This document shows, piece by piece, positions 3,108 to 26,478 of a DNA stretch of 64,000 bases. The notes under the pieces are model-generated. The model was not told the origin of the DNA, made no database searches, and saw nothing but the letters and a program-made list of their open reading frames with translations. Both the position numbers and the translations under genes were made by a program. Within the stretch, counting starts at the first letter, position 1, and each line of letters begins with the position of its first letter. The stretch comes from Scytonema millei VB511283 (GTDB lineage Bacteria; Cyanobacteriota; Cyanobacteriia; Cyanobacteriales; Chroococcidiopsidaceae): the NCBI RefSeq assembly GCF_000817735.3, contig NZ_JTJC03000017.1, forward strand, positions 124,001 to 188,000. The letters run 5' to 3'.

Positions 3108-4454
3108 TTACATTGGTTGAACGCCAGGAATCCAGTCAGTCCCTGCCAGGGGAAGACGTGCCATAGCAGCAGCTTCGATCGTTAGCGCGACTAGATCTTC
3201 CCGTTCTAAGTGATGCACGTTTTGCTTACCGCAAGCACGGGCGATCGTAGTTAATTCCATATTCAGGGTTTGCAGATAGTTTTTGACTCGCCGAGCGCCG
3301 ACTTCCGGTTCTAAGCGTTTTTCCAGAATTTCGTCTTGGGTTGTCACTCCTACGGGACACTTTCCGGTGTGGCAGTGGTGGCAATAACCTGGTGCTGTGC
3401 CGATCGCCGCGTAGTCTTCGATTGCCGAATAATGCGTCCCATTTTGCACGTAAGTTTCGCTATTGCAGCCCAAAGCCATCAAAATTGCTTGACCGATGGA
3501 AACAGCATCTGCACCCATCGCGATCGCTTTGGCAACATCGGCTCCCGTGCGAATGCCACCTGAAACAATCAGTTGTACCTCACCTTTCATATTCATGTCT
3601 TCTAGGGCATCCACCGCCTGCCGCACTGCTGCCAGCGTAGGAATGCCGACGTGTTCGATAAATACTGTCTGTGTCGCCGCAGTCCCCCCTTGCATCCCAT
3701 CAACAACTACAACATCCGCTCCAGCATGAACCGCCAGCTTGACATCGTTGAAAGTTCGTGCTGCACCCACTTTGACAAAAATCGGTTTTTCCCAATCGGT
3801 CAATTCGCGGAGTTGCTGAATTTTGATCGTTAAATCGTCGGGACCCGTCCAATCGGGGTGACGACAGGCAGAGCGTTGATCGACTCCTTCTGGCAGCGTC
3901 CGCATTTGGGCAACTCTAGGATTAATCTTCTGTCCGAGTAACATCCCGCCACCACCTGGTTTTGCCCCTTGACCCACAACAATTTCGATCGCATCGGCTT
4001 TACGCACGTCGTCCGGGTTGAAGCCGTAGCGAGAAGGCAAGCATTGGTAAATTAAGGTTTTTGAAGACAGCCGCTCCTCCGGTGTCATGCCACCATCCCC
4101 AGTTGTGGTAGAAGTCCCGACTGCGGTTGCCGCACGTCCCAGGGCTTCCTTCACGTTAGCCGACAGCGAACCAAAACTCATCCCCGCGATCGTGATGGGA
4201 ATCTCCAGTTGAATCGGTTTTGTGGCGTAGCGAGTGCCGAGAATCGTCTTGGTAGTGCATTTTTCCCGATAGCCTTCCAAAGGATAACGGGACATGGACG
4301 CGCCCAGAAACACCAAATCGTCAAAATGTGGCAACCGACGTTTTGCGCCCAAACCGCGAATTTCGTAAAGACCGTGTGCCGCTGCGTGTTGAATGTAATT
4401 GAGGATACGGCGATCGTAACCCCAAGATTCTTCGCGCGAGATTGATTGAGTCAT
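3108..4454 (-). CDS. mgsC: N-methylglutamate synthase, FMN/glutamate-synthase-like subunit
   Basis: FMN-binding glutamate-synthase domain protein of 448 residues, homologous to GlxD and the C-subunit of N-methylglutamate synthase. It is expected to transfer the methylamino group from gamma-glutamylmethylamide to make N-methylglutamate. Visible features are the barrel entry ITIAGMSFGSLSANVKEALG, GQGAKPGGGGMLLGQKI, VVVDGMQGGTAATQ, the phosphate-binding IVSGGIRTGADVAKA and a CHHCHTGKCPVG cysteine cluster like the 3Fe-4S site of glutamate synthase. ATG 4454 (MTQSISREES) is chosen. The longer open frame to 4616 translates only a repeat-bearing spacer. Last gene of the mgd-gmaS-mgs operon. Confidence 0.85.
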   Translation of the reverse strand: MTQSISREESWGYDRRILNYIQHAAAHGLYEIRGLGAKRRLPHFDDLVFLGASMSRYPLEGYREKCTTKTILGTRYATKPIQLEIPITIAGMSFGSLSANVKEALGRAATAVGTSTTTGDGGMTPEERLSSKTLIYQCLPSRYGFNPDDVRKADAIEIVVGQGAKPGGGGMLLGQKINPRVAQMRTLPEGVDQRSACRHPDWTGPDDLTIKIQQLRELTDWEKPIFVKVGAARTFNDVKLAVHAGADVVVVDGMQGGTAATQTVFIEHVGIPTLAAVRQAVDALEDMNMKGEVQLIVSGGIRTGADVAKAIAMGADAVSIGQAILMALGCNSETYVQNGTHYSAIEDYAAIGTAPGYCHHCHTGKCPVGVTTQDEILEKRLEPEVGARRVKNYLQTLNMELTTIARACGKQNVHHLEREDLVALTIEAAAMARLPLAGTDWIPGVQPM

Positions 4455-4615
4455 ATAACAGTGAGGAGTGAGTAGGGGAGGGGCGCACAGCTGTGCGCCC
4501 GTACAGTAGTGGTAAAAGAAGAAGTCGGAAGACAAGGGAGACAAGGAAAACAAGGCGGACAAGGAAACTTCAGGTGCTTTAGGTGCAGAGGGAGCAATTC
4601 TGGTTCCACCAGCCA
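4455..4615. repeat. Operon spacer with dispersed GGGCGCACAGC palindrome
   Basis: The 161 bp between mgsB and mgsC hold a perfect 20-bp palindrome at 4481-4500 (GGGCGCACAG with CTGTGCGCCC), flanked by GTAGGGG and GTAC. Related copies lie at 35416-35443 and, decayed, at 48556-48583. The rest is purine-rich tandem-like sequence. The spacer splits an otherwise tight operon. Confidence 0.75.
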
Positions 4616-5332
4616 CTAGCCACCAGCCACTGCATCCGCATTCCAGTGATAGAGTTGCTTGGCGGAAGCAACCCGTTTGAAATCTTGGGGATTGTATGAA
4701 AAACCCGCTTTTGCCAATAGCTCGGCTACCGTTGCATAATCGGCTTCAGACATGGATTCTATTTGAGCATCAGCACCGAGCGATTTAATCTCGCCTCGCA
4801 CGTAAATTACAGCTTCGTAAAGTGAATCTCCCAATGCTTCCCCTGCATTCCCACAGACCACAATTCGTCCAGCCTGTGCCATGAATGCGGCAAAGCTGCC
4901 GACGCTACCACCGACAACAATATCTGCTCCTTTGAGCGAAATGCCGCAGCGTAAACTGGCATCACCATCAATAATTAATAACCCTCCGTGGGCAGAGGCT
5001 CCAGCAGAAACTGAGGCAAAGCCTTTGACATGGACTCGACCGGACATCATATTTTCTGCAACACCCGTTCCCACATTCCCGGCGATCGCCACGTTTGCTA
5101 GCTGGTTCATGCTTGCCGCGTAGTAGCCTGCATGACCGAGAATCTCGACATCAACTGGAGCATTCAGTCCAACAGCTATATTATGCGCCCCATCGGGGTT
5201 GAGAATATGAATTTTTTTCTCGCCACGAGCTAGGTTGTGATGCAGGTAATGATTAATTTCGCGTAAGGAGGTTTGGGCGAGATCGAAGGTTATACTATCT
5301 GTTGTCGTACTGCTTGCCGTCAAACTGTCCAT
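4616..5332 (-). CDS. mgsB: N-methylglutamate synthase, GXGXG-domain subunit
   Basis: Protein of 238 residues built around a GXGXG beta-helix domain, as in the C-terminal domain of glutamate synthase, GlxC and MgsB. It is a structural subunit that couples the amidotransferase and FMN subunits. The repeated glycine pattern is seen in VAIAGNVGTGVAENMMSG, GGLLIIDGDASLRCGISLKG, DIVVGGSVGSFAAFMAQAG and RIVVCGNAGEALGDSLYEA. The start overlaps the end of mgsA by 13 bp, implying translational coupling. Its place between the amidotransferase-like and FMN subunits matches the mgsABC order known from methylotrophs. Confidence 0.85.
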   Translation of the reverse strand: MDSLTASSTTTDSITFDLAQTSLREINHYLHHNLARGEKKIHILNPDGAHNIAVGLNAPVDVEILGHAGYYAASMNQLANVAIAGNVGTGVAENMMSGRVHVKGFASVSAGASAHGGLLIIDGDASLRCGISLKGADIVVGGSVGSFAAFMAQAGRIVVCGNAGEALGDSLYEAVIYVRGEIKSLGADAQIESMSEADYATVAELLAKAGFSYNPQDFKRVASAKQLYHWNADAVAGG

Positions 5333-6213
5333 ACGTATAACTCCTCTGGTGCGGGTTCGTAGAGATGGGCGTTTTTCACATCTGGTAGGTGAGCTAGAGA
5401 GCGAAATTCAGAGGCTATCGCCACATACTCGTCAGTTTCAGCAACCACCGCAGGTTTACAAGCAAAGGCATCTCGTACGAGCGCGAGTTTATCTGCTGTT
5501 CCCATCAGAAACGTGTAAAAGCCGTCTAACTCGACAAAGCCTTGTTTGATGGCAGTTTCCAAATCGTCCCCTTCCCGCATCCGCCATTCGAGAAACCGAC
5601 AAGCTGCTTCCGTGTCGTTGTCAGTTTCAAAATGAATCCCAAGCGGTTCTAGACGACGACGAATCGAATAGGGATTGGAAAGAGAACCGTTATGTACCAA
5701 GCAAAAATCTTCTCCCGCCGTAAATGGGTGCGCGCGATCGGGAGTTACTGCCGATTCTGTTGCCATGCGCGTATGGGCGATCGCGTGGGAACCTTTCAGC
5801 GCCGAGAAATTATAGCGATCGGCTACCATCGCTGGTTTTCCCGTGTCTTTGTAGAGATCGATCGTCCGACCTGTTGACAGCAGGTGTAGTTGTGGATATT
5901 TAGCTTTGAGCCATTGCTTGACAAGATCCGGTTCTCGATCCGAAATTAGCACTGCCCGATTGCCATTGCTTTGAATCTCAGGCACAGTCGCGAAAGCTGC
6001 TGGAAACGATCGCCTCAAACTTTCCCAATCGAATTTGTCTTTTGAATAGAGGCTGTATTTGCGCTGCGGCTCTGGCAGGGTAGCAGTAAATACAGCCAGT
6101 CCGGCAGAGTCAGGTCCGCGATCGCTCATGCCAATCAGCATGGGAACCATGAGTTCGCCGAGCGATTCTCGCCATTCTGGTTTTTTAATCAGTAGTCCGA
6201 CAATTCCACACAC
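5320..6213 (-). CDS. mgsA: N-methylglutamate synthase, class II amidotransferase-like subunit
   Basis: Class II glutamine-amidotransferase domain protein of 297 residues (GlxB/MgsA family). The mature N-terminus would be CGIVGLL, with Cys2 as the Ntn nucleophile. The motifs DRGPDSAGLAVF, HTRMATESAVTPDRAHPF, VHNGSLSNPYSIRR and the ammonia-site-like ETDNDTEAACRFLEW all match PurF/GltB-type amidotransferases. In this cluster it should act on gamma-glutamylmethylamide and release methylamine for the synthase reaction; this is inferred from context. It lies 158 bp after gmaS, with a palindromic repeat in the gap. Confidence 0.87.
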   Translation of the reverse strand: MCGIVGLLIKKPEWRESLGELMVPMLIGMSDRGPDSAGLAVFTATLPEPQRKYSLYSKDKFDWESLRRSFPAAFATVPEIQSNGNRAVLISDREPDLVKQWLKAKYPQLHLLSTGRTIDLYKDTGKPAMVADRYNFSALKGSHAIAHTRMATESAVTPDRAHPFTAGEDFCLVHNGSLSNPYSIRRRLEPLGIHFETDNDTEAACRFLEWRMREGDDLETAIKQGFVELDGFYTFLMGTADKLALVRDAFACKPAVVAETDEYVAIASEFRSLAHLPDVKNAHLYEPAPEELYVWTV

Positions 6214-6250
6214 GATCGCACCTACATCTGTATTATTGGAAGAACTTGAG

Positions 6251-6344
6251 AGTTACGCACTTGAAGATTCAGAATCTCGATCCCCCCTAACCCCCCTTAA
6301 AAAGGGGGGAATAAATGCCCCCTTTTTAAGGGGGTTGGGGGATC
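6251..6344. repeat. Dispersed double-hairpin repeat (GATCCCCCC family)
   Basis: From 6279 to 6344 the repeat reads GATCCCCCCTAACCCCCC, then two G/C-run hairpins, and ends GGGGGATC. The upstream arm GCACTTGAAG (from about 6258) also recurs at 35563, so the unit is longer than the palindrome. Related copies are at 11340-11479, 35559-35607 and 44222-44253. It sits inside the operon between gmaS and mgsA. Confidence 0.85.
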
Positions 6345-6371
6345 TCAATTGCCTCCTGTAAAAAAACTTTT

Positions 6372-7700
6372 TTAGAAAAACTCCAAATACCGTTCCACTT
6401 CCCACTCCGAAACATGACGCATATATTCCACCCATTCCATTCGTTTCAAGTTAATAAATTCGTCTGCTAGCACCCCCAACGCACCTTTGATGACCTCATC
6501 CGCTTCCAATGCGGCGATCGCTTCGTGTAAACTCTGGGGTAAAGTGCGGATACCCTTGTCTTTCAGGTCTGCCTCAGATAGCTCGTACAAATTCAAGTTA
6601 TAGGGTTCGCCAGGATCGATTTCTTTGTCAATACCATCTAATCCAGCAGCGATCGCGGCAGCAGTAGCGAGATAAGGATTGCAGGAGCCATCGGCAAGGC
6701 GCAGTTCTAAACGTCCGCTGGGAATCCGTACCATGCTAGAACGATTGTTGTCGCCGTAGGTGATGTAAGCTGGTGCCCAAGTTGCACCGCTGAGCGATCG
6801 CCCCACAACGAGCCGCTTATAGGAATTGATTGTTGGGGCGCAGATGGCAGTGAGTGCGCCTGCATGGGCGAGTAAGCCACCTAGAAAATGATACGCCAGT
6901 TTCGAGAGTCCTAAATGGCGCGAGTCGCCCTCGTCAGCAAACAGATTCGCGCTGCCATCGCTTAAGGACATATGAATGTGCATTCCCGTCCCCGTGCGGT
7001 TGGCAAACGGTTTCGGCATGAACGAGCAAATTAGTCCCAGTTCTTTAGCAATTTCTGACGCTGCCATTTTGAAAAAGATGTAGCGATCGGCGGTCGTAAG
7101 GCAGTCGGTGTAAGTGTAGTTGATCTCAAACTGCCCGTTAGCATCTTCGTGGTCAATTTGATAGATGTCAAAGCCAGCCGCTTGCAGGTGGGTGACGAGT
7201 TTTTCCAGAAAAACCGCACTGCGCGACAAGCCGCGAAAGTCATAGCAGGGTTTCTCTAAGGTATCGGTAGCATCAAACGGGTGAATCTGTCCTCGTTCGT
7301 CTTTACGGAGTAAAGCAAATTCTGGCTCAACTCCGGTATTGAGCGTCCAGCCTCGCTGCTGCAACCGCTCGAACTGCTGCATCAAGATATAACGAGCGTC
7401 GTAGGGGTAAGGTTCACCTTTAACATGACCGACACAGGCAATTCGGGCAAATCCTGGCATCCAGGGGACGAGCGATAGGGTTGAGAGATCTCCAACTGCC
7501 ATGTAATCTGGACTGTGCGGCTCCATACCCAATCCCCACACTGCAAATCCAGCGAATCCGGCTCCTGGATGCAAAATATCTTCAAAATGAGTCACGGGTA
7601 CGGCTTTCGTTTTGGCAACCCCGTGAATATCGACAAATTGCGCCAGAACGAACTTGACTTGATGCGATTCGAGAAATGTTTTGGCTTCTGCTAGATTCAT
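6372..7700 (-). CDS. gmaS: Gamma-glutamylmethylamide synthetase (glutamine-synthetase family)
   Basis: Glutamine-synthetase-fold ligase of about 442 residues. In the N-methylglutamate pathway it joins methylamine to glutamate using ATP. Motifs seen are [19 protein letters not shown] at the N-terminus (typical of GmaS/GlnT), the metal-site region [58 protein letters not shown] and [18 protein letters not shown] 7700 ([12 protein letters not shown]) follows a GGAG; an alternative ATG at 7760 overlaps the mgdD stop as ATGA and would add 20 residues. Its location between mgd and mgs genes, rather than alone, argues for GmaS over an ordinary glutamine synthetase. Confidence 0.87.
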
Positions 7701-7756
7701 CCGCTTGGCTCCAGGTTGACTCAATCTGTTCAAATTCCACGAATACAGTAGCTTTG

Positions 7757-8401
7757 TCATAAAAATGATTCTGTGCCGATCGCGCCACCTCCCAACTCTG
7801 TAGCAATCTGAATCAGGGTTTGCCAGAAATACGTGCCAAACGTGCGATCGCACCAAATCCGATAGTAATCGCCGTCACTTGGAATCACTGTCACTGCTAC
7901 CCCAATCGCATTTGTCAAAACGACTGGACGATCGCTAAGCGATAATGCCTGAAAATTAAAACTACAGGTTTGGCGTAAAAGATCGTTGACGCGATCGCCT
8001 ACTAACCCCAGTGCCAGATCTTGCCGTAAAACTGGGTAAACTTTTGCAGGAGGAGACTTACAGGTAGTTGCTAACTGGGGAGAGATCGCGCTGTTGAGGC
8101 TATCTTCGATCAGAAATTCTGTCAGTCCCAACCGAGCAACGATCCCTCCTGCGGGTAAGGAATGCCAAGTATTCGGGCGATCGGGAATTGGCAGTCCGCG
8201 ATCGGCTAACCACTCGGCTGCATTTGCTCCTTTCACGCCAAAGCGGGTCAGAAAAGACAAATCGGCAATTCCCAACACAGAGGCAGACTGGCGATCGCCT
8301 GGTAGCGTGACTAAGGAGGGCATACCGTTGATGTCGCGCCACGCACCGTTAAGCGACTGGAGTGAATCGTGAATTGGACTCAGACGTAAAGGAGTCTTCA
8401 T
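7757..8401 (-). CDS. mgdD: N-methylglutamate dehydrogenase / sarcosine-oxidase-like gamma subunit
   Basis: Protein of 214 residues of the heterotetrameric sarcosine oxidase gamma family (SoxG/MgdD), related to the folate-binding GcvT fold. The pattern [28 protein letters not shown] and the C-terminal [20 protein letters not shown] fit the family and its usual length of about 200. It probably helps hold the folate site with the alpha subunit. The start overlaps the end of mgdC by 4 bp, and its stop overlaps a possible gmaS start. Weakly conserved family, so the call rests partly on position. Confidence 0.82.
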
Positions 8402-11301
8402 ACGATCGCCTCCTGGGGTTGTGCTGTTTCTTGCTGGCGTTGGTTTTCAGGGTCGTAGAATGGTGTCGGACTGACTGTTGCCGTGACGATCGCACCATCG
8501 GATAGACGAATTGAAATGCGATCGCCGATCGCTGCTAGTTCTGGTTTAACGTAGGCGAGTCCAATATACCGCTTTAAAACGGGACTAAAAGCAATACTCG
8601 TAACGCGACCTGCAATTTCACCGCGATCGATAATCAAATGACACTCTTGCGGTGCTGTACCCTGAAAGTTGGGGTCGAGCGTAAAACCAACTAACTTTTG
8701 GGCGATCGCTTGCTTGGCAATGGCTTGCAGGCTGCGCTGACCGATAAAAAACGGCTTATCCAATTTAACCGCCCACCCTAGATTAGCCTCCCTCGGAGTT
8801 GTCAAAGCATCGGTATCTTGACCGACAATCAAATGTCCTTTTTCCAACCGCAAAAGCCGCTGTGCTTCCACGCCAAAGGGTGCAATACCGTAAGTCTTAC
8901 CTGCGGCGAACAGAGCATCCCAAATAGCCGCAGCCGACTCAGCCGCAACGTGAATTTCGTAACCCCACTCGCCCACAAAACCAACTCGGATTAAAATTGC
9001 TTCAATTCCAGCCACCAATGCTTCTCGTACTGCTAGATAGGGAAAAGCAGCACTGGAAAGATCGCAATCCGTTAGCTGCGCCAAGACATCGCGGGCATAA
9101 ATTCCAGCAAGATTAATTGCCGATCGCGCCCCAGTTAAATTGACCAAGCCGCAATCTAAGCCCCACATTGTATTCAGCCGCGATAGTTCTCGGTAAATCG
9201 TCGCTGCACCGGAAGTCGTCGTCGTGAAATAAAAATGCTCGGTTCCCAGTCGCGCCATGACACCATCGTCAATAATTACGCCTGTCTCGTCTAGCATCAG
9301 TGCATAGCGCGACATCCCCAGTTTCAATTTGCCGTAGCGTCCGGTGTAAACTCGCTCTAAAAACTCGGCAGCATCCGCCCCGCGCAATTCTAATTTTCCT
9401 AACGTCCCAACATCGATCGCCCCTACGCGAGTCCGCACGGCTATGACTTCAGCCCGAATGCAATCTTCGCGGCTCTTTCCAGGTCGGGTGTAATATTCGG
9501 GTCGTCGCCAAGCTCCTGCCAGCATGAACTCAGCGCCCAAGGCAGCATGACGACTGTGTAAAGGAGTGTAACGCTCTGGAGTAAAGCCCCGTCCGGCTAA
9601 GTGCGATAAGGGAACCGGATGAAAGAACGGTCGAGCCGTGGTCGTACCGACTTCAGCAGGAGATTTACCTGTAATGCGTGCCAAAATGCGCAATGCATTC
9701 ATATTGGAATGCTTACCCTGACTCGGTCCCATGCCTACAGTGGTAAATCTTTTGAGCAATTCAATATTGTCAAATCCTTCCTGAATGGCGTTGGGAAAAT
9801 CCTTGAATTGAAGATCTTCATCAAAATCGACAAAGTTCTTACCTGCTGGATGTTCCACGATCGCCCACGGATGCGAGGGGGATTCTGAGCTGGGTGTAAC
9901 AGCACAATCGACGGGTTTTGTCAATCCTAGAAAAGCAGCCGCCTCTAATCCAGCCCGACGACCATCGAGTAACTTACGATCGAACTCGTACACGCCATTC
10001 ACCCGTCCGCAGGCAAACACACCCGCAGGTAAGCGATCGGGAACGAACTGCTGCAAGCTGTCATCGAAGCGCATTTTCGTTCCAGCTTGGTAGAGTAAAT
10101 TTGCTGCACCTGCCCAGCCGACACTCATCATAATCCCATCGCAGGCGATCGCTTGTTTGAATTCTGTCTGCGGTTTGCCGTTGGCATCAAGCGGACAAAT
10201 GACTGCACCCGAAACGCCATCGCTGGCTGGATTCGTTTTAGCTGCATAAATGCAATGACTGGTAAAAATGGGAATACCGAGCGCTTGTAAAGCTTGAGTT
10301 GTTGGGTTAGTCGTGTAAGTCGGACGTAAATCCGCGATCGCCTTCACCTCAATGCCATGCTTGGCTAAATCTAAAGCAGCCTGATAACCATCACTATTTG
10401 CCGTCAATACCACCGCTCGTTGCATCGGTTTGACGGCATAGCGATAAATTAATCGTTGTGCGGCAGAAGCTAACATCACTCCTGGTGAATCGTTATTGCG
10501 AAACACGGCAGGCTGTTCGTATGCCCCATTTGCCATAATGACCGTCTTTGCTCGCATTTTAGTCAGACGTTCTCGATCGACCAGTGGAATCCAGTTATCG
10601 GCATAATAGGCAGCGGCTACCGTTTCGGTGTAGAGACGGATGCGATCGCAGTTTTTAACTGCTTCTACGAGTTCGTTCGTCTGCATCATCCATGCACCAG
10701 AACCGCCTGCCCGTGCATTTTCATCTACGATCGCCACATTTGCCCCCGCATCGGCTGCGGCTAACGCTGCTGACAATCCCGCCACGCCTGCGCCAATGAC
10801 TAGCACGTCGCAGAAGTCATACTGCTTTGCCGTGCGAATGTGGGGTGTGGCAACATCGACTTTGCCTAATCCGCTCAAATTGCGGATCGTGCGTTCCCAG
10901 AAGGGGAACAGCCGTTTGTGATGAAAGGCTTTGTAATAAAACCCGACTGGGAGCAGAGGGGAGAAAAAATCTAAAATGCTGTGGCAATCGCCCATCACCC
11001 CACCATTTGTATTCACCGCATAGAGCGACATTCCCGCTTCTAATGGCGTAATATCGGCTCTCACGTTGAGCTGCTGACCATTTTGCATCAGAGCATTAAT
11101 ATCGTGACTTGCCAGACTCAAAATTCCGCGCGGACGATGGTATTTGAAACTGCGTCCCAACACTCGTTGTCCGGCAGCCCATAACGCACTCGCGATCGTG
11201 TCTCCGGCATAACCCCAAAAGCGATTTCCTTCAAAGGTAAAGTCAATTCGCTGACTGCGATCGATCCATTCACCGGAGATGGGTGGTAGGCGATTGCTCA
11301 T
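8398..11301 (-). CDS. mgdC: N-methylglutamate dehydrogenase / sarcosine-oxidase-like alpha subunit
   Basis: Large alpha subunit of 967 residues (SoxA/MgdC). Residues about 15-100 form a 2Fe-2S-ferredoxin-like domain typical of the family (FEGNRFWGYAGDTIASALWA). A dinucleotide-binding oxidoreductase domain follows, with GAGVAG at about 170-175, and a GcvT-like aminomethyltransferase domain from about 600 (IDVGTLGKLELRGADAAEFL, FVGEWGYEIHV) binds tetrahydrofolate. It should oxidise N-methylglutamate together with the beta subunit and pass the C1 unit to folate. Sarcosine or dimethylglycine are alternative substrates; linkage to gmaS and mgsABC favours N-methylglutamate. Confidence 0.88.
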   Translation of the reverse strand: MSNRLPPISGEWIDRSQRIDFTFEGNRFWGYAGDTIASALWAAGQRVLGRSFKYHRPRGILSLASHDINALMQNGQQLNVRADITPLEAGMSLYAVNTNGGVMGDCHSILDFFSPLLPVGFYYKAFHHKRLFPFWERTIRNLSGLGKVDVATPHIRTAKQYDFCDVLVIGAGVAGLSAALAAADAGANVAIVDENARAGGSGAWMMQTNELVEAVKNCDRIRLYTETVAAAYYADNWIPLVDRERLTKMRAKTVIMANGAYEQPAVFRNNDSPGVMLASAAQRLIYRYAVKPMQRAVVLTANSDGYQAALDLAKHGIEVKAIADLRPTYTTNPTTQALQALGIPIFTSHCIYAAKTNPASDGVSGAVICPLDANGKPQTEFKQAIACDGIMMSVGWAGAANLLYQAGTKMRFDDSLQQFVPDRLPAGVFACGRVNGVYEFDRKLLDGRRAGLEAAAFLGLTKPVDCAVTPSSESPSHPWAIVEHPAGKNFVDFDEDLQFKDFPNAIQEGFDNIELLKRFTTVGMGPSQGKHSNMNALRILARITGKSPAEVGTTTARPFFHPVPLSHLAGRGFTPERYTPLHSRHAALGAEFMLAGAWRRPEYYTRPGKSREDCIRAEVIAVRTRVGAIDVGTLGKLELRGADAAEFLERVYTGRYGKLKLGMSRYALMLDETGVIIDDGVMARLGTEHFYFTTTTSGAATIYRELSRLNTMWGLDCGLVNLTGARSAINLAGIYARDVLAQLTDCDLSSAAFPYLAVREALVAGIEAILIRVGFVGEWGYEIHVAAESAAAIWDALFAAGKTYGIAPFGVEAQRLLRLEKGHLIVGQDTDALTTPREANLGWAVKLDKPFFIGQRSLQAIAKQAIAQKLVGFTLDPNFQGTAPQECHLIIDRGEIAGRVTSIAFSPVLKRYIGLAYVKPELAAIGDRISIRLSDGAIVTATVSPTPFYDPENQRQQETAQPQEAIV

Positions 11302-11339
11302 AGGGCAATAGGTTGGGTTAAAAGCGATCGATCCTCGAA

Positions 11340-11479
11340 GATCCCCCCTAGCCCCCCTTCAAAAGGGGGGAACAATGCTTTCATTTTTAAAAGTTCCTTT
11401 AAAAGACTGAGCCAAACGCTCCACCAACATTGAAAAGAGGGGAACAATGCCCCCCTTTTCAAGGGGGGTTGGGGGGATC
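11340..11479. repeat. Expanded GATCCCCCC-family repeat with a duplicated 12-mer
   Basis: Same family as 6279-6344, but the two halves are pushed apart. GGGGAACAATGC occurs at 11367-11378 and again at 11439-11450, flanking 60 bp of unrelated AT-rich sequence. This looks like an insertion with target duplication, or a tandem copy. It lies in the mgdB-mgdC gap (11302-11503) and could form a large stem in the mRNA. A 69-codon open frame over it is only translated repeat. Confidence 0.8.
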
Positions 11480-11503
11480 GAGTCTTATCTAAACTAGATT
11501 GGC

Positions 11504-11767
11504 TCATCCAACTCCCTCCTTGTCGTACAAATAAGTCCGCAAGACCTCATCGGTCAGCGTATTGCGTTCTGCAATAAACCAGGTATGACTTGGCGTATGA
11601 CACCACCACTCCTGTTGAATTCCCGGTACGCTAGTGCGATTAAATACGTACTCTGCCCAAGTTTGGTCATCAACTGTTCGCGGATCGGGCATAGAGCGGA
11701 CTTCCCCGCCACAGATAAACTCAGAAATAGGTCTTGCTCCGTTAATCGGACAGGTCATCATTTTCAT
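11504..11767 (-). CDS. mgdB: N-methylglutamate dehydrogenase / sarcosine-oxidase-like delta subunit
   Basis: Small delta subunit of 87 residues (SoxD/MgdB). The N-terminal CPINGARPISEFICGGE and the later WWCHTPSHTWF carry the zinc-ligand cysteines and histidine of the family. RTVDDQTWAEYVFNRTSVPG and the C-terminal DEVLRTYLYD are also family-typical. It is a structural zinc subunit of the heterotetrameric dehydrogenase. It starts 2 bp after the mgdA stop, so the two are co-translated. A repeat-filled gap of about 200 bp separates it from mgdC. Confidence 0.88.
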   Translation of the reverse strand: MKMMTCPINGARPISEFICGGEVRSMPDPRTVDDQTWAEYVFNRTSVPGIQQEWWCHTPSHTWFIAERNTLTDEVLRTYLYDKEGVG

Positions 11768-11769
11768 CG

Positions 11770-13011
11770 TTAATGCCCCACTGATGCTGCACCCTTTTCA
11801 CCCACCAACGCATAATTTTTGAATCGATCGAGCGAGAATTTGGCAATTAATTCGTGACTGCGATCGCTTGCCACGGTGTACGCCATCGTTTTGCCACACA
11901 CCGGAGTTGCCTTAAAGCCCCAAGTCCCCCACCCAGCATCGAGATAAAACCCCGCGATCGCAGTTTTCCCCATAATTGGTGCAAAATCAGGAGTCATATC
12001 TGCCATACCTGCCCATTGCCGCACGATCTTAACGTGAGAGAGGAACGGAAACAGTTCGAGCATATGCGCTGCTAGCCCTTCCGCAAAATCTAGGGTCGAT
12101 CGCGTGGAATGTAATTCATACGGATCGAGAGAGGCTCCCATGACTAACTCACCGCGTGCGGTTTGACTGACATAGACATGCAGGCTACCCGAAACAATTA
12201 TTGGGTCGAGCCAGGGTTTCATTGGTTCGCTGACCATTGCTTGGAGTGGATGCACGTACAAGGGCGATCGCAGTCCTACCATTTGCAACAGGCGCGGTGT
12301 AAATCCAGCAACCGCACACAGTACCCGTGGTGTAGAAATCGTCCCTTTGGTGGTCTGTACTCCCGTCACTTTGCCCGATTCAACACTTATTCCCAAGACT
12401 TCGGTTTGCTGGTGGATCTCGACCCCCCGCCGATCTGCGCCGCGACCGTAACCCCACGCCACAGCATCGTGACGGGCAATACTCCCAGGTGCGTGATATA
12501 GTGCGCCCATTACAGGAGCCTTACCACCACACGTCAAATCCATGTGTGGGCAAGCTTTTTTAATTTGATTCGGCTCGACTAATTCGCTCTCAATGCCGAA
12601 ATGCTTATTCACCTCAGCCCGCCAGCGCATCGTTCGGATTGCAGAGTCAGTATGAGCTAGCGTGAAATGTCCCCGCGTGGAATAAAACAAATTTAAATCG
12701 AAATCCTGCGCTAAATCTTGCCAGAGTCGCACCGATTCATCGTAAAACTTTACGCCCTCTGGGGTGAGATAGTTGGAGCGAATAATCGTCGTGTTGCGTC
12801 CCGTATTCCCGCCGCCAAGATAACCTTTTTCAAGAACGGCTATATCGGTCATGCCGTAATCTCGCGCCAGATAATAAGCAGCTGCCAGCCCGTGTCCGCC
12901 TGCACCAATGATGACAGCATCGTAATTTGATTTGAGGCGATCGCGATGGCGGAACATCGCCGGTTCTGGATGCTGCTTCGCCAACGCAAATTTCAGCAGA
13001 TTTAAAGGCAT
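11770..13011 (-). CDS. mgdA: N-methylglutamate dehydrogenase / sarcosine-oxidase-like beta subunit
   Basis: FAD-dependent oxidoreductase of the DAO family, 413 residues (SoxB/MgdA). The Rossmann motif GAGGHG lies at 36-41 within YDAVIIGAGGHGLAAAYYLA. It is followed by GGGNTGRNTTIIRSNYL, a SoxB hallmark, and a C-terminal FAD region (TPDFAPIMGKTAIAGFYLDA). This subunit should carry out flavin oxidation of the secondary amine. It is the first gene of the operon, and its Shine-Dalgarno lies inside a 13-bp inverted repeat that faces the divergent regulator. Confidence 0.88.
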   Translation of the reverse strand: MPLNLLKFALAKQHPEPAMFRHRDRLKSNYDAVIIGAGGHGLAAAYYLARDYGMTDIAVLEKGYLGGGNTGRNTTIIRSNYLTPEGVKFYDESVRLWQDLAQDFDLNLFYSTRGHFTLAHTDSAIRTMRWRAEVNKHFGIESELVEPNQIKKACPHMDLTCGGKAPVMGALYHAPGSIARHDAVAWGYGRGADRRGVEIHQQTEVLGISVESGKVTGVQTTKGTISTPRVLCAVAGFTPRLLQMVGLRSPLYVHPLQAMVSEPMKPWLDPIIVSGSLHVYVSQTARGELVMGASLDPYELHSTRSTLDFAEGLAAHMLELFPFLSHVKIVRQWAGMADMTPDFAPIMGKTAIAGFYLDAGWGTWGFKATPVCGKTMAYTVASDRSHELIAKFSLDRFKNYALVGEKGAASVGH

Positions 13012-13018
13012 CGTAAGT

Positions 13019-13031
13019 TTCCTGTCAGGAA
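13019..13031. promoter_or_regulatory. Candidate operator: TTCCTG-T-CAGGAA inverted repeat
   Basis: A perfect 6-bp inverted repeat with a one-base centre lies just upstream of mgdA and overlaps its AGGAAA ribosome-binding sequence. A second copy of one arm (TTTCCTG) lies at 13078-13084 in the same 152-bp divergent intergenic region. The likely ligand is the XRE-cupin regulator encoded next door. The sequence is seen directly; the operator role is inferred. Confidence 0.5.
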
Positions 13032-13163
13032 CCTTTGCTGAATATCATGCATCAAAGATTTCTGGGTGTCAACAAAGTTTCCTGCTATGATTCAAGACGA
13101 TGCAGGGTGAAATGGTAGCCAGCGCTGTTTCTCCATACTGCTCCCATACTGTGAGGTAAGCGC

Positions 13164-13790
13164 ATGACAGATGCCACAGCAAACGGGCTGGAGCGTTCCG
13201 AAGTCCCAGCCGTCGATCCGCTCGAACGCTACATTGGCAGTACGATTCGCGAAATGCGCCAAAAACTCGGACTCACTATTGCCGAAATTTCGGAACAGAC
13301 AGGAATTTCGCGGGGGATGTTGTCCAAGATTGAAAACGCTCAAACTGCTACGAGTTTGGAAACATTGACGAAAATTGCTCGTGCTTTAGGTATTTCCCTG
13401 TCAGCCTTCTTTCGCAATTACGACGTACCCACGGGCAGCGCCCAGCTGGTGAAAAACGGTGAAGGGATGGAAGTCGTGCGTCGCGGCACGAAGCGAGGAC
13501 ATACCTATCAATTGCTGGCATACGATCGCGGTTCGACAAAACTATTCGAGCCTTTTCTGATCGCTATGGATGACGCTTCGGAAGTGTTTCCCACCTTTGA
13601 GCATCCTGGGGTTGAATTCATTTATATGCTAGAAGGCAAGCTGGAATACCGTCACGGACAATCAACTTATTTGTTAGAACCTGGTGACGCATTAACTTTT
13701 CGCGGTGATATTCCTCACGGTCCTGAAAAACTGATCGAGCTACCGATTCGCTTTCTTGCCATCATTCACTATGCCACGCCTGAAAGCTAA
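13164..13790 (+). CDS. XRE-family regulator with C-terminal cupin domain
   Basis: Transcription factor of 208 residues. A helix-turn-helix of the XRE type spans about 25-80 (IGSTIREMRQKLGLTIAEI, then SRGMLSKIENAQTATSLETL). A cupin sensor domain spans about 120-195 (PGVEFIYMLEGKLEYRHG, LEPGDALTFRGDIPHGPEKL). The family commonly controls amine or amino-acid use. ATG 13164 follows GAGGTAA. It is transcribed away from mgdA across a 152-bp gap that contains an inverted repeat. It therefore most likely regulates the methylamine operon, with a pathway amine or N-methylglutamate as a plausible inducer (inference). Confidence 0.9.
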   Translation: MTDATANGLERSEVPAVDPLERYIGSTIREMRQKLGLTIAEISEQTGISRGMLSKIENAQTATSLETLTKIARALGISLSAFFRNYDVPTGSAQLVKNGEGMEVVRRGTKRGHTYQLLAYDRGSTKLFEPFLIAMDDASEVFPTFEHPGVEFIYMLEGKLEYRHGQSTYLLEPGDALTFRGDIPHGPEKLIELPIRFLAIIHYATPES

Positions 13791-16709: not shown

Positions 16710-18284
16710 TTAATGCAAAAAATACCTTACACCTGTCAACACCATCACAATTCCCAATTCATTTGCTGCCTTAACTGAATCTGCGTCCCTAAGACTTCCA
16801 CCTGGTTGAACGATCGCAGTTATGCCAGCAGCGGCGGCTGTCTTGACTGAATCATCAAAAGGAAAAAACCCATCGCTAGCCAGTACTGCACCTTGAGCTT
16901 TTTCTCCAGCTTGTTCTAAGGCAATTTGTACCGAACCGACACGATTCATCTGTCCCGCACCTACACCAATGGTAGCGCGATCGCGGGTCACGACAATGGC
17001 ATTTGATTTGACGTGCTTGCACACCTTCCAAGCAAATAGTAATTCTTCTAACTGGGCTGGAGTTGGTTGTTTTTCTGTCACCATTTGCCACTGCTTAGGA
17101 TCGGCAACCATATCGTCAGATGCTTGTACTAAGAAACCACCAGCAATAACTTTTACTGTTTCCTTTGCACCCGTGCCTAATTCTGGTAACAGCAAAACCC
17201 TAACTTTAGATTTACTCGCCAGAATTTCCCGTGCTTCTGGTTCGCATTCTGGAGCAACAACGCATTCTAAAAATGTTTTTGTTAAAGCTGTAGCCGTAGC
17301 TGCATCAATCGCCCGATTTAAAGCAACAATTCCCCCAAAAGCTGAAACTGAATCAGCATTAAAAGCCTTTTCATAAGCTTCGGAAATTGTATTTCCCAAT
17401 GCCGTACCGCAAGGATTTGTATGTTTAATAATTGTCGCTGCGGGGATATCGGTAAATTCCGCAATGATTCGCCTTGCAGCTTCAAGATCGACTAAATTGT
17501 TATAACTTAATTCCTTACCTTGAAGTTTAGTCGCTGCCGCCCAACCCGTTGCTGTCGTTCCCGTCTGATACCAAGCCGCAGGCTGATGCGGATTCTCCCC
17601 ATAGCGCAAAGCTTGAACTTGTTCTCCTATCAGTGTAAATCTTTTAGGTAGTTCTTCCTGACTCCCGTACGGGCGGGTTTCTAAACCCGCCCCTACCGAC
17701 TCCTGACTCCCTAAAAAAGAAGCGATCGCGCGATCGTAATTCGATGTATGCCAAAAAGCTTTTTGGGCGCAGGCGGCGCGGAATTCAAATGAGATTTCCC
17801 CCTGTTGGCGTAATTCCTGCAAATATGTTGCATACATTGCTGGCTCGCACAATACGGTTAAATGAGCAAAATTCTTAGCCGCTGCCCGAATCATCGCGGG
17901 ACCACCAATATCGATTTGTTCTACTGCTTCTGCTAAACTCACGTCAGGCTTGGCGATCGTTTGCTCGAAGGGATAGAGATTGACTGCCACCAGATCGAAA
18001 GGGCGGATATTGTTAGCCTCTAGATCTGTCACGTCCTGCGGGACATCCCGCCGTGCTAAAATGCCACCATGAATCCGAGGGTGAAGAGTTTTGACGCGCC
18101 CACCGAGAATTTCCGGCGAACCAGTGTAATCTGCAACTTTAGTCACTGGTACTCCTGCTGCTTTAATGGCTTGAGCCGTTCCGCCGCTGCTCACAATTTC
18201 AAAACCAAATTCTTCTACCAAACTACGGGCAAAATCGATCAGCCCTGTTTTATCAGATACACTCAGCAGCGCCAAACGTGCCAT
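16710..18284 (-). CDS. purH: Bifunctional AICAR formyltransferase / IMP cyclohydrolase
   Basis: Catalyses the last two steps of purine synthesis (AICAR to FAICAR to IMP). The N-terminal cyclohydrolase begins MARLALLSVSDKTGLIDFAR and contains GGRVKTLHPRIHGGILARRD. The transformylase domain shows LRYGENPHQPAAWYQ, IIKHTNPCGTA and AFGGIVALNR. ATG 18284 is used because it matches the family start; the frame extends upstream without support. About 20 extra residues (about 191-210, SVGAGLETRPY with flanks) sit at the domain junction and are the translation of a dispersed palindrome also found in amiC. The domain cores are intact, so the enzyme is probably active. Confidence 0.95.
   Translation of the reverse strand: MARLALLSVSDKTGLIDFARSLVEEFGFEIVSSGGTAQAIKAAGVPVTKVADYTGSPEILGGRVKTLHPRIHGGILARRDVPQDVTDLEANNIRPFDLVAVNLYPFEQTIAKPDVSLAEAVEQIDIGGPAMIRAAAKNFAHLTVLCEPAMYATYLQELRQQGEISFEFRAACAQKAFWHTSNYDRAIASFLGSQESVGAGLETRPYGSQEELPKRFTLIGEQVQALRYGENPHQPAAWYQTGTTATGWAAATKLQGKELSYNNLVDLEAARRIIAEFTDIPAATIIKHTNPCGTALGNTISEAYEKAFNADSVSAFGGIVALNRAIDAATATALTKTFLECVVAPECEPEAREILASKSKVRVLLLPELGTGAKETVKVIAGGFLVQASDDMVADPKQWQMVTEKQPTPAQLEELLFAWKVCKHVKSNAIVVTRDRATIGVGAGQMNRVGSVQIALEQAGEKAQGAVLASDGFFPFDDSVKTAAAAGITAIVQPGGSLRDADSVKAANELGIVMVLTGVRYFLH
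17667..17696. repeat. GTACGGGCGGGTTT palindrome inside purH
   Basis: GTACGGGCGGGTTT, a 2-base centre, then AAACCCGCCCCTAC, bordered by GACTCCC-type short repeats. It is in frame with purH and adds a short peptide at the domain linker. Other copies are at 58215-58244 (inside amiC) and 48007-48073 (intergenic). Confidence 0.9.
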
Positions 18285-18337
18285 AGTTCCCAGTCCCCTG
18301 CAATTCAAATCAGACAAAGAACTATTGTACGTTGTTA

Positions 18338-18416
18338 GTTATTCAGTTATCAGTTATCAGTTGTCAGTTATCAGTTATCAGTTAATTCCGACTTACGACT
18401 TACGACTTACGACTTC
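18338..18416. repeat. Heptamer tandem repeats TTATCAG and GACTTAC
   Basis: Two adjoining arrays upstream of purH: about six TCAGTTA units, then about four GACTTAC units. They fill most of the divergent gap between purH and the DUF937-like gene. Confidence 0.85.
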
Positions 18417-18468
18417 CCAATTCATGGTATTAGACATTATGGAGATGTTAAATGGAGGATTAGAGTAA

Positions 18469-18993
18469 ATGGGACTCTTCGATCAAATCGTCAGTGCAGT
18501 CGGTAACTCTAACCAAGCTGGTAGCGCAGGTCAAATTGGTGCCATTGTCAACACGATCCAACAGCTCAGCAACAATACTGGTGCAGACCCTTCTACCCTA
18601 CAATCAGTATTGTCATTAGTGGGCGGTCAGGTGCGCTCGTCTTTACAACAACAACGTGCTGTTAATGGCGAAGCACAAGCACGGGCGATCGTCAACCAAT
18701 ATAGCGGTACGGAACCCAGCCCTCAAGCTGTTAATACTCTGTTTTCTTCTAACCAACAGCAACAACTGATCCAACAAATTGCCCAGATGACAGGAATGAA
18801 TTTGGGTTCGATCCAGCAGATGCTACCCGTACTCGTGCCAATAGTATTAAATTTGCTGCAATCTGGGAATCAGACTCAAAACCCCCAAGGCGGCGCTAAT
18901 CCCGTCCTCAACGCTTTTCTAGATGCCGATCGCGATGGGGATGTGGATATAGCCGATGCAATGCAAATGGCAAGCCGCTATTTAAGCCGATGA
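18469..18993 (+). CDS. DUF937-like protein with C-terminal calcium-binding motif
   Basis: Glutamine- and asparagine-rich protein of 174 residues. The body (MGLFDQIVSAVGN, QIGAIVNTIQQLSNN, LLQSGN) resembles the DUF937 family. The last 25 residues contain DADRDGDVDIAD, a textbook EF-hand or dockerin-type calcium loop. No signal peptide is seen. Function is unknown. ATG 18469 is preceded by GGAGGATTAGAGTAA. A strong hairpin follows the stop. The DUF937 assignment is from memory of the sequence style. Confidence 0.8.
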   Translation: MGLFDQIVSAVGNSNQAGSAGQIGAIVNTIQQLSNNTGADPSTLQSVLSLVGGQVRSSLQQQRAVNGEAQARAIVNQYSGTEPSPQAVNTLFSSNQQQQLIQQIAQMTGMNLGSIQQMLPVLVPIVLNLLQSGNQTQNPQGGANPVLNAFLDADRDGDVDIADAMQMASRYLSR

Positions 18994-22485: not shown

Positions 22486-25400
22486 TTAGGCAATGATAAA
22501 ATCGTTGGCACTGAGAGTAGGTTTACCAGAGAGCTGAGCGACGGCTGACTCTCCTCCTAATACGCCTAGATCTGGGTTGTAGAACAAATTTCCAGTTTCT
22601 AAGCTGTATACGATTTTTGAAGTACTACTTTTAGCAGCAGCATCCGTACTAACTGATGCAAACTCTCCAGCAGAACTGAATCCATTACCAACATTGCTGG
22701 TAAGTCCGAAGGTTATTTTGCCGAGGACAATTTTGTCTAATTCGCTGGTCTTGAAATCGCTAATAATATCGACACCGATATCAAATGTAGAGAAGGCAGC
22801 ACCAGTATTGTAATCGAAGCGATCGGCTCCAAGTCCACCCACCAAAGTATCGTTGGCTCCTTGACCTACGAGGGTGTCATTGCCTGCACCGCCAAGCAGC
22901 GTGTCATTTCCCGTATCACCTGCAAGCCTATTAGCACCACTATTACCAGAAATGAGGTTATCAATATCGTTTCCAGTACCGTTAGTGTCTGCACTTCCAG
23001 TTAAAGTCAAGTTTTCTACATTAGTCGTGAGAGTGTAGTTGATGGAAGAAAATACGAGATCGACACCCGCATTGGAATTTTCTTCTACTACATCTCCAGC
23101 ATTATCAACTACATAAGATTCGTCACCGTCGCCTCCTTTCATGATGTCGCTGCCTAGCCCACCATCTAGGTAATCGTTGCCTGCCAGACCTTCAAGGGTG
23201 TTATTGCTAGTATTACCAATTAAAACGTTATTACCAGTATTACCAATACCATTGAGAGCATCAAAGCCAGTGAGAACAAGTTTCTCTACGTTATCTGTTA
23301 ACGTGTAACTGACTGAGGTATGAACAGTATCAAAACCTGTATCAGTTCCTGCTGACTCAACAACGATATCGCCAGTACTGTCAACGTAGTACACATCATT
23401 ACCTAGCCTACCAGACATGGTGTCGTTGCCTGCACCACCATTAATGATGTTGGCATATTGAGTAGTCTGACTACTATCAACTGAAATGTTGTTATCTAAA
23501 TCATTACCAGTACCACTAATGTTGCCTTGGTATAGCACTAAGTTTTCAACGTTATCGCTGATAGTATAGGAAGTTGCTGCGGAGTTGACAGTATCAAACC
23601 CCTCATTAGCAGCTTCTACAATTATGTCTTCCGGTAGACCAACTAAATAAGTATCGTCTCCCAGTCCTCCATACAAGGTGTCGATATCACCCGTACTGCC
23701 ATCAAGAGTATCGTTACCAAGCCCACCAATAATCAGGTCTTTGCCACCACCACCATCGAGGTAGTCGTTGCCTTCTTTACCGTCAAGGGTATTGGCTATG
23801 TTGTTACCAACAACTGAGTTATTCAAGCTATTGCCGGTACCGTTGCTAGCTAAATCGGTTAAGGTGAGATTCTCAACATTAGTTCCCAGAGAATAAGTGA
23901 TGGAAGACTTAACGGTGTCATTGCCACCAGTATCGCCTCCAGAACTCCAGGTTTCTACAACTTGATCTCTGAAATTATCAACAATATATGTATCGTTGCC
24001 AACTCCGCCTTTGAGATAATCTTTGCCAGCACCACCATCTAGCAAATCATTTCCATTTCCAGAATCATCGAGAAGCCAGTCATCTCCATCTCCTCCATAA
24101 AGAGAATCATCACCACCGTTTCCTCTAAGAGTGTTGATGCCAATATTGCCAGTTATCTTGTTATTGAGATTATTACCAGTGCCAGCACCATGAATTCCGG
24201 TCAAAGTCAAATCTTCAACGTTGTTCGTCAAAGTATAAGAAACTGACGCTTGTACGAGGTCAATCTCATTCGCCAACGTGGAGCTTTCCGTAACGACATC
24301 TCCAGTGTTGTCCACAATATATGTATCGTTGTTTGTTCCACCAGAGAGGTTATCAGCTCCAACTCCACCATCAAGAGTATCGTTACCGCTATCACCACTG
24401 AGAGTGTTATTGAGATTATTGCCGATAAGGATGTTATTGATGGTATTACCAACCCCAGTGGTAGCACTTCCAGTCAGAGTTAAATTTTCAACGTTGCTAT
24501 CTAGCGATCGCTCATAATTTATTGATGACAGAATCGTGTCAACGCCTTGACCGCCGTATTCAGTCACTCTATCAGCAACGTTGTCAACAATATAAATGTC
24601 GTTGCCAGTTCCTCCAGCTAGCGTATCATTACCAAGTCCACCATCAAGGAGGTTGTCACTACTATTGCCAGTTATAGTATTAGCAACGCTGTTACCTATC
24701 CCTTCAATCTTGCCAGTTCCCGTCAAGACTAATGTCTCAAATCTGTCTTTCAGGGTATAGCTGAAATCAGTTTCAATGGTGTCTCTGCCGCCGGTGTCAT
24801 TACCACTACTGTCAGATTCAATCGGATTATCGCTTGGGTTATCGAGAACGTATCTATCATCTCCAACACCACCTATAAGCGTGTCAATACCAGCACCACC
24901 ATTAAGAACATCGTTGCCCGCACCACCTGTCAGAGTATTGCTATTACTATTACCAATGAGTGTATTATCGCTACTGTTGCCCGTGCCATCGATTTGGCTA
25001 GTTCCCAAAAGAGTTAAGTTCTCTACGTTGGCAAGATTAGCTAAGGAGTAAGTGAAATTAGCTTGAATGGTATCGCTACTTGGATCGGCATCTTCAATAA
25101 CCGTGTCTCCTACGTTATCTAGAACGTAAGTATCGTCACCAATTCCACCTGTTAAAATATCAGCGCCAGCTTTGCCATCAAGGATGTCGTTGCCAGCCTG
25201 ACCATCAAGGGTATTGTTACCACTGTTACCAATTAGGTTATTATTGCTGCTGTTACCAGTTCCAGTCAGATCTTCAGTTCCCAGTAAGGTAAGATTTTCG
25301 ACGTTAGGGGTTGAGGTTGATAAAGAATAGTTAAAGTTAGCTCGAACAGTATCAATGCCTGCATTTAAATCTTCGACAACTGTGTCTGTACTATCAATGG

Positions 25401-25965: not shown

Positions 25966-26478
25966 TTGTCCTCCGTTACAAATTTGAAAAAACCATGACA
26001 CAAACTTTCAATCTTCACTGTTGTAGCAGCAGGTATCAGCAATAAGATAATAGAGAAATTACTGATTTATAAAACTTTAGTTTTTTTTAAATCGAGAAAA
26101 ATTACTGAAAAATTCCAATTTAAGGTAAAACACAAACATGAAAAAAGAGTTTTAAGGTAAAATCATCCTCTAACTCGATCTCAGTCAATTAGTGACAATC
26201 GACCATGAGAAAAACATCTGTAAAAACACGCTTACAAACAATCAATTTCAGTTTTTATCTCGGTAGAACTACTAAACTACGAAACACTTAACAAATTCAA
26301 AATACGCTCAAAAAAATATTAAATACTCAATTTTTTGTTTATATTCCGTATGATTTAACAATGTTTTATATATAGTTTTGATATTAAAATTAATATCTAA
26401 AGAGATTTTGTAGTTAGAAACATCTTGATAGATCAACTCTATTAAACCACCGCTAGTACGAGGCTAAATCTATTTAAA
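25966..26478. other. AT-rich 0.5-kb leader/promoter region of the RTX gene
   Basis: No ORF of note. The sequence is strongly AT-rich with many A- and T-tracts, unlike the flanking coding DNA. It must contain the RTX promoter and the 3' end of the glycosyltransferase transcript. The RTX ribosome-binding site (GGAGGACAA) lies directly at its left edge. Confidence 0.5.

Follow-up and report, generated by a model that had tools for sequence, protein, structure and literature searches.

Gene content and layout of the block

The DNA stretch analysed here (the window) spans 64 kb of a 455-kb contig in the 5.97-Mb genome of Scytonema millei VB511283 and carries, at positions 3108 to 13790, a block which the open reading frame (ORF) calls and profile scans identified as a canonical N-methylglutamate (NMG) operon, made up of a divergent regulator and of mgdABCD-gmaS-mgsABC. 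The eight structural genes all lie on the minus strand, in the order mgdA-mgdB-mgdC-mgdD-gmaS-mgsA-mgsB-mgsC, and the eight genes and divergent regulator proposed in the initial annotation were found in that order and at those coordinates, with small corrections to the starts of mgsC and gmaS (Table 1). On the evidence of the sequence, the gene set and its assignment to the pathway are strongly supported, and the reactions of the enzymes are predicted from those of characterised homologues. Very probably, this is a full NMG operon of the type of Methylovorus and Zoogloea, with a patchy distribution among cyanobacteria.

The same genes occur in the same order in members of the family (53 to 99% identity per protein) and in many proteobacterial loci (about 32 to 86%), so that a chance assembly of the block is excluded; in particular, its order equals that of Methylovorus, Novimethylophilus, Zoogloea and Thiobacillus. 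The Methylovorus NMG operon (M. menthalis, locus L110) shares the divergent regulator and the arrangement mgdABCD-gmaS-mgsABC, with 71% identity in MgdA, 68% in GmaS and 70% in MgsC. However, it resides in a methylotrophic betaproteobacterial host, and its MgsC lacks three iron-sulfur (Fe-S) cysteines that the cyanobacterial MgsC possesses. The operons of Zoogloea, Azoarcus, Thiobacillus and Acidithiobacillus share with the window the order, the regulator and the Fe-S cysteines of MgsC (about 61 to 65% identity in MgdC, 70 to 73% in GmaS), and belong to the clade that is sister to the cyanobacterial blocks in the six-protein tree described below; different from the window, they are proteobacterial, and several of them carry purU between the regulator and mgdA, where the window has none.

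As regards the gene boundaries, the GTG at 4616 (mgsC) and the TTG at 7856 (gmaS) are probably not the true starts. The alignment of the relatives' MgsC begins only at residue 43 to 60 of the long reading that starts at 4616, and the gmaS ATG at 7760 overlaps the mgdD stop, with an alternative internal ATG at 7700. Overlaps also occur between mgdC and mgdD and between mgsA and mgsB, and gaps separate mgdB from mgdC (about 200 nt), gmaS from mgsA (about 160 nt) and mgsB from the likely start of mgsC (about 160 nt). The position of mgdD is constant in the cyanobacterial blocks and in most proteobacterial mgd blocks.

Table 1. Features of the NMG block and of its control region (window positions)
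Feature	Position	Strand	Basis
XRE-cupin transcriptional regulator, PuuR-like architecture, divergent	13164..13790	+	HTH_3, Cupin_2
Candidate operator of the divergent regulator, palindrome TTCCTGTCAGGAA, 13 nt	13019..13031	.	single exact match
Putative sigma-70-like promoter, TTGACA - 17 nt - CATGAT	13044..13072	-	scan; conservation in 15 cyanobacterial loci
mgdA, N-methylglutamate dehydrogenase, SoxB-like flavin subunit	11770..13011	-	TIGR01373 473 bits; tree
mgdB, SoxD-like small subunit without the SoxD zinc cysteines	11504..11767	-	PF04267; CPING for CPNCG
mgdC, SoxA-like subunit, folate-binding GCV_T domain	8398..11301	-	TIGR01372 836 bits; GCV_T, SO_alpha_A3
mgdD, SoxG-like subunit	7757..8401	-	TIGR01375 E 4e-6; conserved position in blocks
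gmaS, gamma-glutamylmethylamide synthetase	~6372..7760	-	TIGR03105 647 bits; 9qur 716 bits; residues; tree
mgsA, class-II glutamine amidotransferase subunit of N-methylglutamate synthase	5320..6213	-	GATase_6; N-terminal [V/M]CGIVG (Met-Cys)
mgsB, GXGXG (GltS domain 3-like) subunit	4616..5332	-	PF01493
mgsC, FMN-binding glutamate-synthase-like subunit, three GltS Fe-S cysteines	3108..~4454	-	PF01645 317 bits; GltS alignment

Sequence features of GmaS, MgdABCD and MgsABC

On the TIGR03105 profile, whose cut-off is 469.6 bits, the window GmaS scores 647 bits and the GmaS of Methylovorus 648 bits; thus, the profile's name, type III glutamate-ammonia ligase, is no evidence for glutamine synthesis. 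The closest PDB match is 9qur (716 bits, 68% identity), the Methylovorus mays enzyme MmGMAS (PMC12588301), to which the GmaS of M. menthalis is nearly identical, and RhGmaS (7cql) follows at 373 bits. In the GmaS tree (65 rows; the only support values are those of the SH-like approximate likelihood ratio test, SH-aLRT), the 16 block rows of cyanobacteria fall into a single clade (98), nested in a branch (96) together with 9qur and the other block rows; the three other proteins of the genome that resemble glutamine synthetase (GS; L001, L003, L004) lie outside the GmaS branch, on very long branches. The initial identification of a GmaS-type ligase, distinct from true glutamine synthetases, is therefore borne out by the tree. 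Furthermore, the residues described for catalysis and for the methylamine pocket in RhGmaS, namely, the catalytic D177, E186 and R312 and the pocket residues Y147, Q175, E179, N188 and K30' (PMC7948447), are all kept in 19/19 cyanobacterial block rows, window included, and in the same rows W300 and A48 replace the GS residues. The check drew on 22 cyanobacterial rows, from which L055 (broken) and L059 and L065 (one contig, short readings) were omitted; since L060 and L064 are one contig, the 19 rows represent 18 distinct genomes.

Other cyanobacterial GmaS-like ligases, termed orphans here, are found with no pathway genes adjacent; they are 39 to 46% identical to the window GmaS and fall outside its clade. 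Six of them (L033, L035, L036, L038, L039, L042) adjoin proteins that by eye resemble fatty-acid desaturases and alpha/beta-hydrolases. GmaS-like ligases of another kind, in L048 (G170), L051 (G304) and L052 (G342), are clustered with an agmatinase-family hydrolase, HypA, HypB (these three identified by scanning the L048 proteins) and a substrate-binding-like protein; they lack Q175 and N188, with Ser and Asp in their place, and their cluster resembles guanidine-hydrolase clusters.

The four Mgd subunits match the SoxB, SoxD, SoxA and SoxG families, each under the curated NCBIfam cut-off (soxB, 473 bits against 529.45; soxA, 836 against 1164; soxD, 61 against 116.5; soxG, 27 against 144). The MgdA and MgdC of three methylotroph controls, i.e., Methylovorus, a Methylophaga metagenome-assembled genome (MAG) and Novimethylophilus, likewise fall below the Sox cut-offs, from which it follows that such scores are normal for N-methylglutamate dehydrogenases. 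On TIGR01373, true SoxB proteins reach 694 to 729 bits and the MgdA of the three methylotrophs 489 to 504 bits, the window MgdA standing slightly below the latter at 473 bits. A SoxB search of nine genomes gave true SoxB in four and only MgdA-type matches (479 to 504 bits) in five, one of which is cyanobacterial. Moreover, SoxB (4 rows) and MgdA are set apart with a support of 100 in a tree of 48 rows, from which 17 rows of less than 35% identity had been removed beforehand; the support of the cyanobacterial MgdA clade is only 85. The window MgdA is 71 to 79% identical to five proteobacterial MgdA versus 45 to 48% to four true SoxB, and groups with the methylotroph MgdA, as the initial annotation had assumed.

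Among the solved structures, the heterotetrameric SoxBDAG (2gag, 1vrq) is matched by MgdA, MgdB and MgdC in its beta, delta and alpha chains, respectively. In the delta subunit SoxD, cysteines bind zinc. However, MgdB presents CPING at the position of CPNCG in the SoxD structures, the later SoxD cysteine has no counterpart, and the CPxCG motif occurs in none of the MgdB sequences compared. The GCV_T folate domain is well recognisable in MgdC (PF01571, E 1.6e-70), which is 50 to 53% identical to the MgdC of Methylovorus, Methylophaga and Novimethylophilus. On the basis of the scores below the cut-offs, of the MgdA tree and of the missing zinc cysteines of MgdB, sarcosine oxidase was rejected as the identity of MgdABCD.

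MgsABC corresponds to a glutamate synthase split into GATase-II, GXGXG and flavin mononucleotide (FMN) domain subunits, adjoining gmaS. In GltS, the cysteines of the motif LGC ... CHTGKCPVG belong to the Fe-S site. An alignment to GltS and to the two GltS of the genome confirmed that the window MgsC keeps these three cysteines and one more. All of them are present in 72 of 79 MgsC rows (15/15 cyanobacterial, 57/64 others), including that of Novimethylophilus, a methylotroph by name, and in the remaining seven, among them Methylovorus and the Methylophaga MAG, they are replaced by D/Y/W/D. A second, partial mgsC-like piece was noticed in L056 (about 18262 to 18680), 3' of an intact mgsC.

No GltD-like subunit was seen within the block. 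The redox partner of N-methylglutamate synthase has been stated to be unknown, with NADH, NADPH and reduced ferredoxin as candidates (PMC6237917); since the cyanobacterial MgsC keeps the GltS Fe-S cysteines, reduced ferredoxin is a plausible electron donor of the cyanobacterial MgsABC. The split between MgsC with and without the Fe-S cysteines points to enzymes worth comparing and makes the question of the redox partner testable.

Control region, distribution and history of the block

The regulator and mgdA are separated by 152 nt (13012 to 13163), where a promoter scan returned three sites with 10/12 matches, one of them being that of Table 1. This region yields no more sites than expected by chance, and the scan by itself is therefore no proof; however, in the window and 14 of 15 extracted relatives (L057 omitted), i.e., 15 cyanobacterial loci, TTGA does not vary and the -10 region hardly does, and these are among the most conserved columns. 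The palindrome TTCCTGTCAGGAA occurs once in 64 kb versus 0.02 expected, for a pattern picked after seeing the sequence, and its half-sites are found again in the consensus of those 15 loci. Most cyanobacterial and many proteobacterial blocks have a relative of the regulator in this position, likewise in divergent orientation. Taken together, the conserved promoter and the palindrome suggest that the operon is controlled by the regulator of the block itself. In Methyloversatilis grown on methylamine, the NMG genes and a co-clustered regulator are reported to be 6-10 fold up, table lines giving q values of 0.65 to 0.73 (PMC5023235).

A search for the same eight-gene block in other cyanobacteria, which the initial annotation had proposed, was successful. 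The best 80 of the 462 loci confirmed by scanning public genomes with a GmaS alignment comprise 13 cyanobacterial loci (L061 to L073) and 67 others. Since 2 of the 13 repeat known genomes, the block, whole or partial, is present in at least 21 cyanobacterial genomes of several families, including Phormidesmis priestleyi, a Hydrococcus MAG, Stenomitos rutilans, Tildeniella nuda and Microcoleus sp. FACHB-1515. All eight genes occur in at least 17 of the 21 carriers, counting three with defects: L066 (where the contig ends within mgsC), L059 (where it ends within mgdA and the gmaS reading is shortened) and L073 (mgdC split in the reading). The blocks of L071 and L072 are truncated at contig ends.

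A full-length MgdC was detected in 9 of the 40 nearest genomes, window's genome included, all of them of the same family, and in 3 of 386 genomes sampled evenly across the phylum. Many of the 386 are small genomes outside the window's class, probably non-photosynthetic, so the rate among photosynthetic cyanobacteria would be above 3/386. The block is rare and dispensable in cyanobacteria, as this count and two damaged copies described below indicate. TIGR03105 proteins over the cut-off are more widespread (at least 24 of the 386 genomes, at most four candidates per genome being scored). Two of these genomes, G000 and G308, have the block; for 19 of the other 22 (G175, G314 and G322 being left out), the fetched stretches around 20 TIGR03105 loci, some of them short contigs, contained no mgs or mgd gene, and in one locus only a 32% match to the GcvT-like end of MgdC was found. 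One of the 19, G060, has the block on another contig, without gmaS. Cyanobacterial TIGR03105 proteins at large were thus rejected as a sign of the pathway.

The tree of six proteins was built on the 34 loci from which all six could be extracted, after near-identical proteobacterial rows had been thinned from 41; the cyanobacterial loci omitted are those with one of the six proteins cut, broken, missing or incompletely extracted. In it, all 12 cyanobacterial rows fall into a single clade (100/100, recovered in 100% of 200 bootstrap trees), next to one of beta- and gammaproteobacteria. The tree is unrooted, and bootstrap support at its deepest branches is 48 to 56. We read this topology as one entry into, or one origin within, the cyanobacteria, which may have been followed by patchy spread or loss. 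With regard to vertical or horizontal spread within the window's family, its six carriers do not stand together in the tree, but a single clade is not rejected (approximately unbiased test, p-AU 0.463).

Other arrangements were noticed among the proteobacterial loci. In Burkholderiales, L100, L105 to L109, L111, L126, L127, L131, L134 and similar loci hold only regulator-gmaS-mgsABC, with no adjacent mgdABCD. Two MAG records titled Klebsiella pneumoniae, L120 and L130, also have NMG genes; in the tree, L120 is paired with a gammaproteobacterial MAG of environmental origin, so the name of its record is probably wrong.

With regard to the surroundings of the block, clpB and purH on one side and fasciclin-like and ABC-transporter-like genes on the other are shared by the window and both other members of the genus examined, which, together with the length of the contig, makes a contaminating contig unlikely. 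A search of 11 genomes of the family for an empty site at the clpB/fasciclin locus gave no informative one, since the best clpB and the best fasciclin matches lie on different contigs or far apart. Elsewhere in the window (22486 to 26001), near exopolysaccharide-type genes, there is an ORF of 1171 amino acids that begins with a Calx-beta-like part and contains numerous repeats of the GGxGxDxLxG type, recognised by eye.

Predicted pathway and alternative explanations

By analogy with the characterised homologues, methylamine use by the carrier cyanobacteria is likely. Methylammonium would enter the cell, probably via Amt, of which the genome has two genes. GmaS would then join it to glutamate at the expense of ATP, giving gamma-glutamylmethylamide, from which MgsABC would transfer the methylamine group to 2-oxoglutarate, yielding N-methylglutamate and glutamate. 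Finally, MgdABCD would oxidise N-methylglutamate to glutamate and hand its methyl carbon over to tetrahydrofolate, so that, on balance, one methylamine nitrogen would reach glutamate and one one-carbon (C1) unit the folate pool; the XRE-cupin protein probably regulates the operon through the palindrome in the promoter. Uptake by Amt, the use of the nitrogen in vivo, the target of the regulator and the electron donor are what we infer here. Experimental background for the middle steps is provided by mgsABC-gmaS of M. extorquens, which produces N-methylglutamate in P. putida (PMC6237917).

A supply of nitrogen and of a C1 unit to folate, the role put forward in the initial annotation, would fit the gene content, i.e., the GCV_T domain of MgdC and the presence of purU in the operons of some relatives. 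In four cyanobacterial loci (L063, L067, L068, L070) and several proteobacterial ones, purU lies between the regulator and mgdA, and the copies of L067 and L091 that were scanned are PurU (formyltetrahydrofolate deformylase) over the cut-off. In L091, from Acidithiobacillus, FolD follows mgsC. These purU and FolD positions link the operon directly to the C1 chemistry of folate. In the window's genome, PurU over the cut-off and FolD are both present, away from the block.

Tentatively, it is possible to hypothesize that in the carrier cyanobacteria the NMG operon works as a second, light-driven cycle resembling that of GS and glutamate synthase (GS/GOGAT), where an Fe-S MgsABC fed by photosynthetic ferredoxin would make methylammonium a source of nitrogen and C1 units. 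Under the same hypothesis, the N-methylglutamate synthases may form two mechanistic classes, one with the Fe-S cysteines and externally reduced (72 of 79 MgsC), and one without the cysteines, working by exchange with glutamate (7 of 79).

A number of observations weigh against a complete, working methylamine route. As to GmaS, the ATP-site W189 of RhGmaS is a Tyr in 19/19 cyanobacterial and 65/67 other block rows, and 17 of 20 orphans also keep the eight pocket and catalytic residues, so that the assignment of GmaS rests on context and tree, not on residues alone. As to the integrity of the block, the bin G401 has a shortened gmaS reading; the block of G390 (L055) is broken, with transposase-like ORFs within mgdA and a short gmaS followed by further transposase-like ORFs, and no mgs in the stretch; and the block of G060 (L207, G060:C23:585500-605400) lacks gmaS, mgdD being directly followed by mgsA at about 7650 to 7690. 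The last need not be dead, because mgsABC alone yielded some N-methylglutamate in P. putida (PMC6237917); G060 also carries a GmaS-like ligase on another contig (L050). As to the folate link, PurU exceeds the cut-off in 27 of 40 genomes, including relatives without the block, and is not found over the cut-off in the carriers G308 (partial, one in-frame stop), G398 and G399; being present in most relatives whether or not they carry the block, PurU was rejected as an indicator of the pathway in its own right. Finally, neither a methylamine-specific transporter nor genes for tri- and dimethylamine were seen by eye among the neighbouring ORFs, with no genome-wide search for the tri- and dimethylamine genes.

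The regulation of the block bears on a further explanation, according to which the operon mainly clears methylammonium, or gamma-glutamylmethylamide, a dead-end analogue that ordinary GS would form from it, thus serving detoxification or salvage and not nutrition. The NtcA box has the form GTA-N8-TAC. In its strict form, it is absent from 13012-13163 and from the upstream regions of the 15 cyanobacterial relatives; loose matches occur in some relatives only, and the 11 matches of the pattern in the 64 kb are at chance level. Control by NtcA was therefore rejected, and no sequence tie between the operon and nitrogen limitation is left, which speaks against a nutritional role; a dedicated regulator with an operator-like palindrome is found instead, and the block is patchy and dispensable. 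Uptake of methylammonium (MeA) by several cyanobacteria has also been described (PMC10794816). However, a full route to glutamate and a C1 unit exceeds what detoxification needs, and the pathway supports growth on methylamine in the bacteria studied, so we regard clearance as possible but on the unlikely side.

It appears improbable that GmaS, Mgs and Mgd act on another alkylamine or N-methyl compound, such as ethylamine or, for the dehydrogenase, sarcosine. MmGMAS accepts a broader set of substrates than RhGmaS, ethylamine among them (PMC12588301), so that the GmaS sequence alone leaves the substrate unfixed, which is a further point against the methylamine assignment, and SoxBDAG is the nearest solved family for the MgdA to MgdC subunits searched. 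However, the identities of MgdA to its two families, the loss of the SoxD zinc cysteines and the linkage to gmaS-mgsABC, arranged as in methylotrophs, favour methylamine. Weaker still, and very unlikely, is a recently acquired operon in decay, with no present function in the strain, as could be suggested by the G390 and G060 copies and by the G+C content of the block (0.506 versus 0.42 in the remainder of the window), given that all eight frames are open and kept by two congeners at 88 to 98% protein identity, that the promoter is conserved in 15 loci and that the GmaS catalytic and pocket residues are retained.

The preferred reading, a complete NMG operon, concerns a pathway that is known in a phylum that is apparently new for it. 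In cyanobacteria, methylammonium is classically a non-metabolised and mainly non-nutritive analogue of ammonium. The initial remark that these organisms are not usually described as users of the route holds in the searchable literature, where we found no description of the NMG pathway in cyanobacteria (most subscription papers lie outside such a search); a Cyanophyceae GmaS, however, was already coloured in an alignment of a 2020 paper (PMC7948447, Fig. 10 legend). MmGMAS, for its part, has been expressed in Synechocystis for theanine (PMC12588301). The block described here places a complete methylamine route in oxygenic phototrophs and, if the pathway works, carrier cyanobacteria could use the nitrogen of methylamine and take up its carbon via folate.

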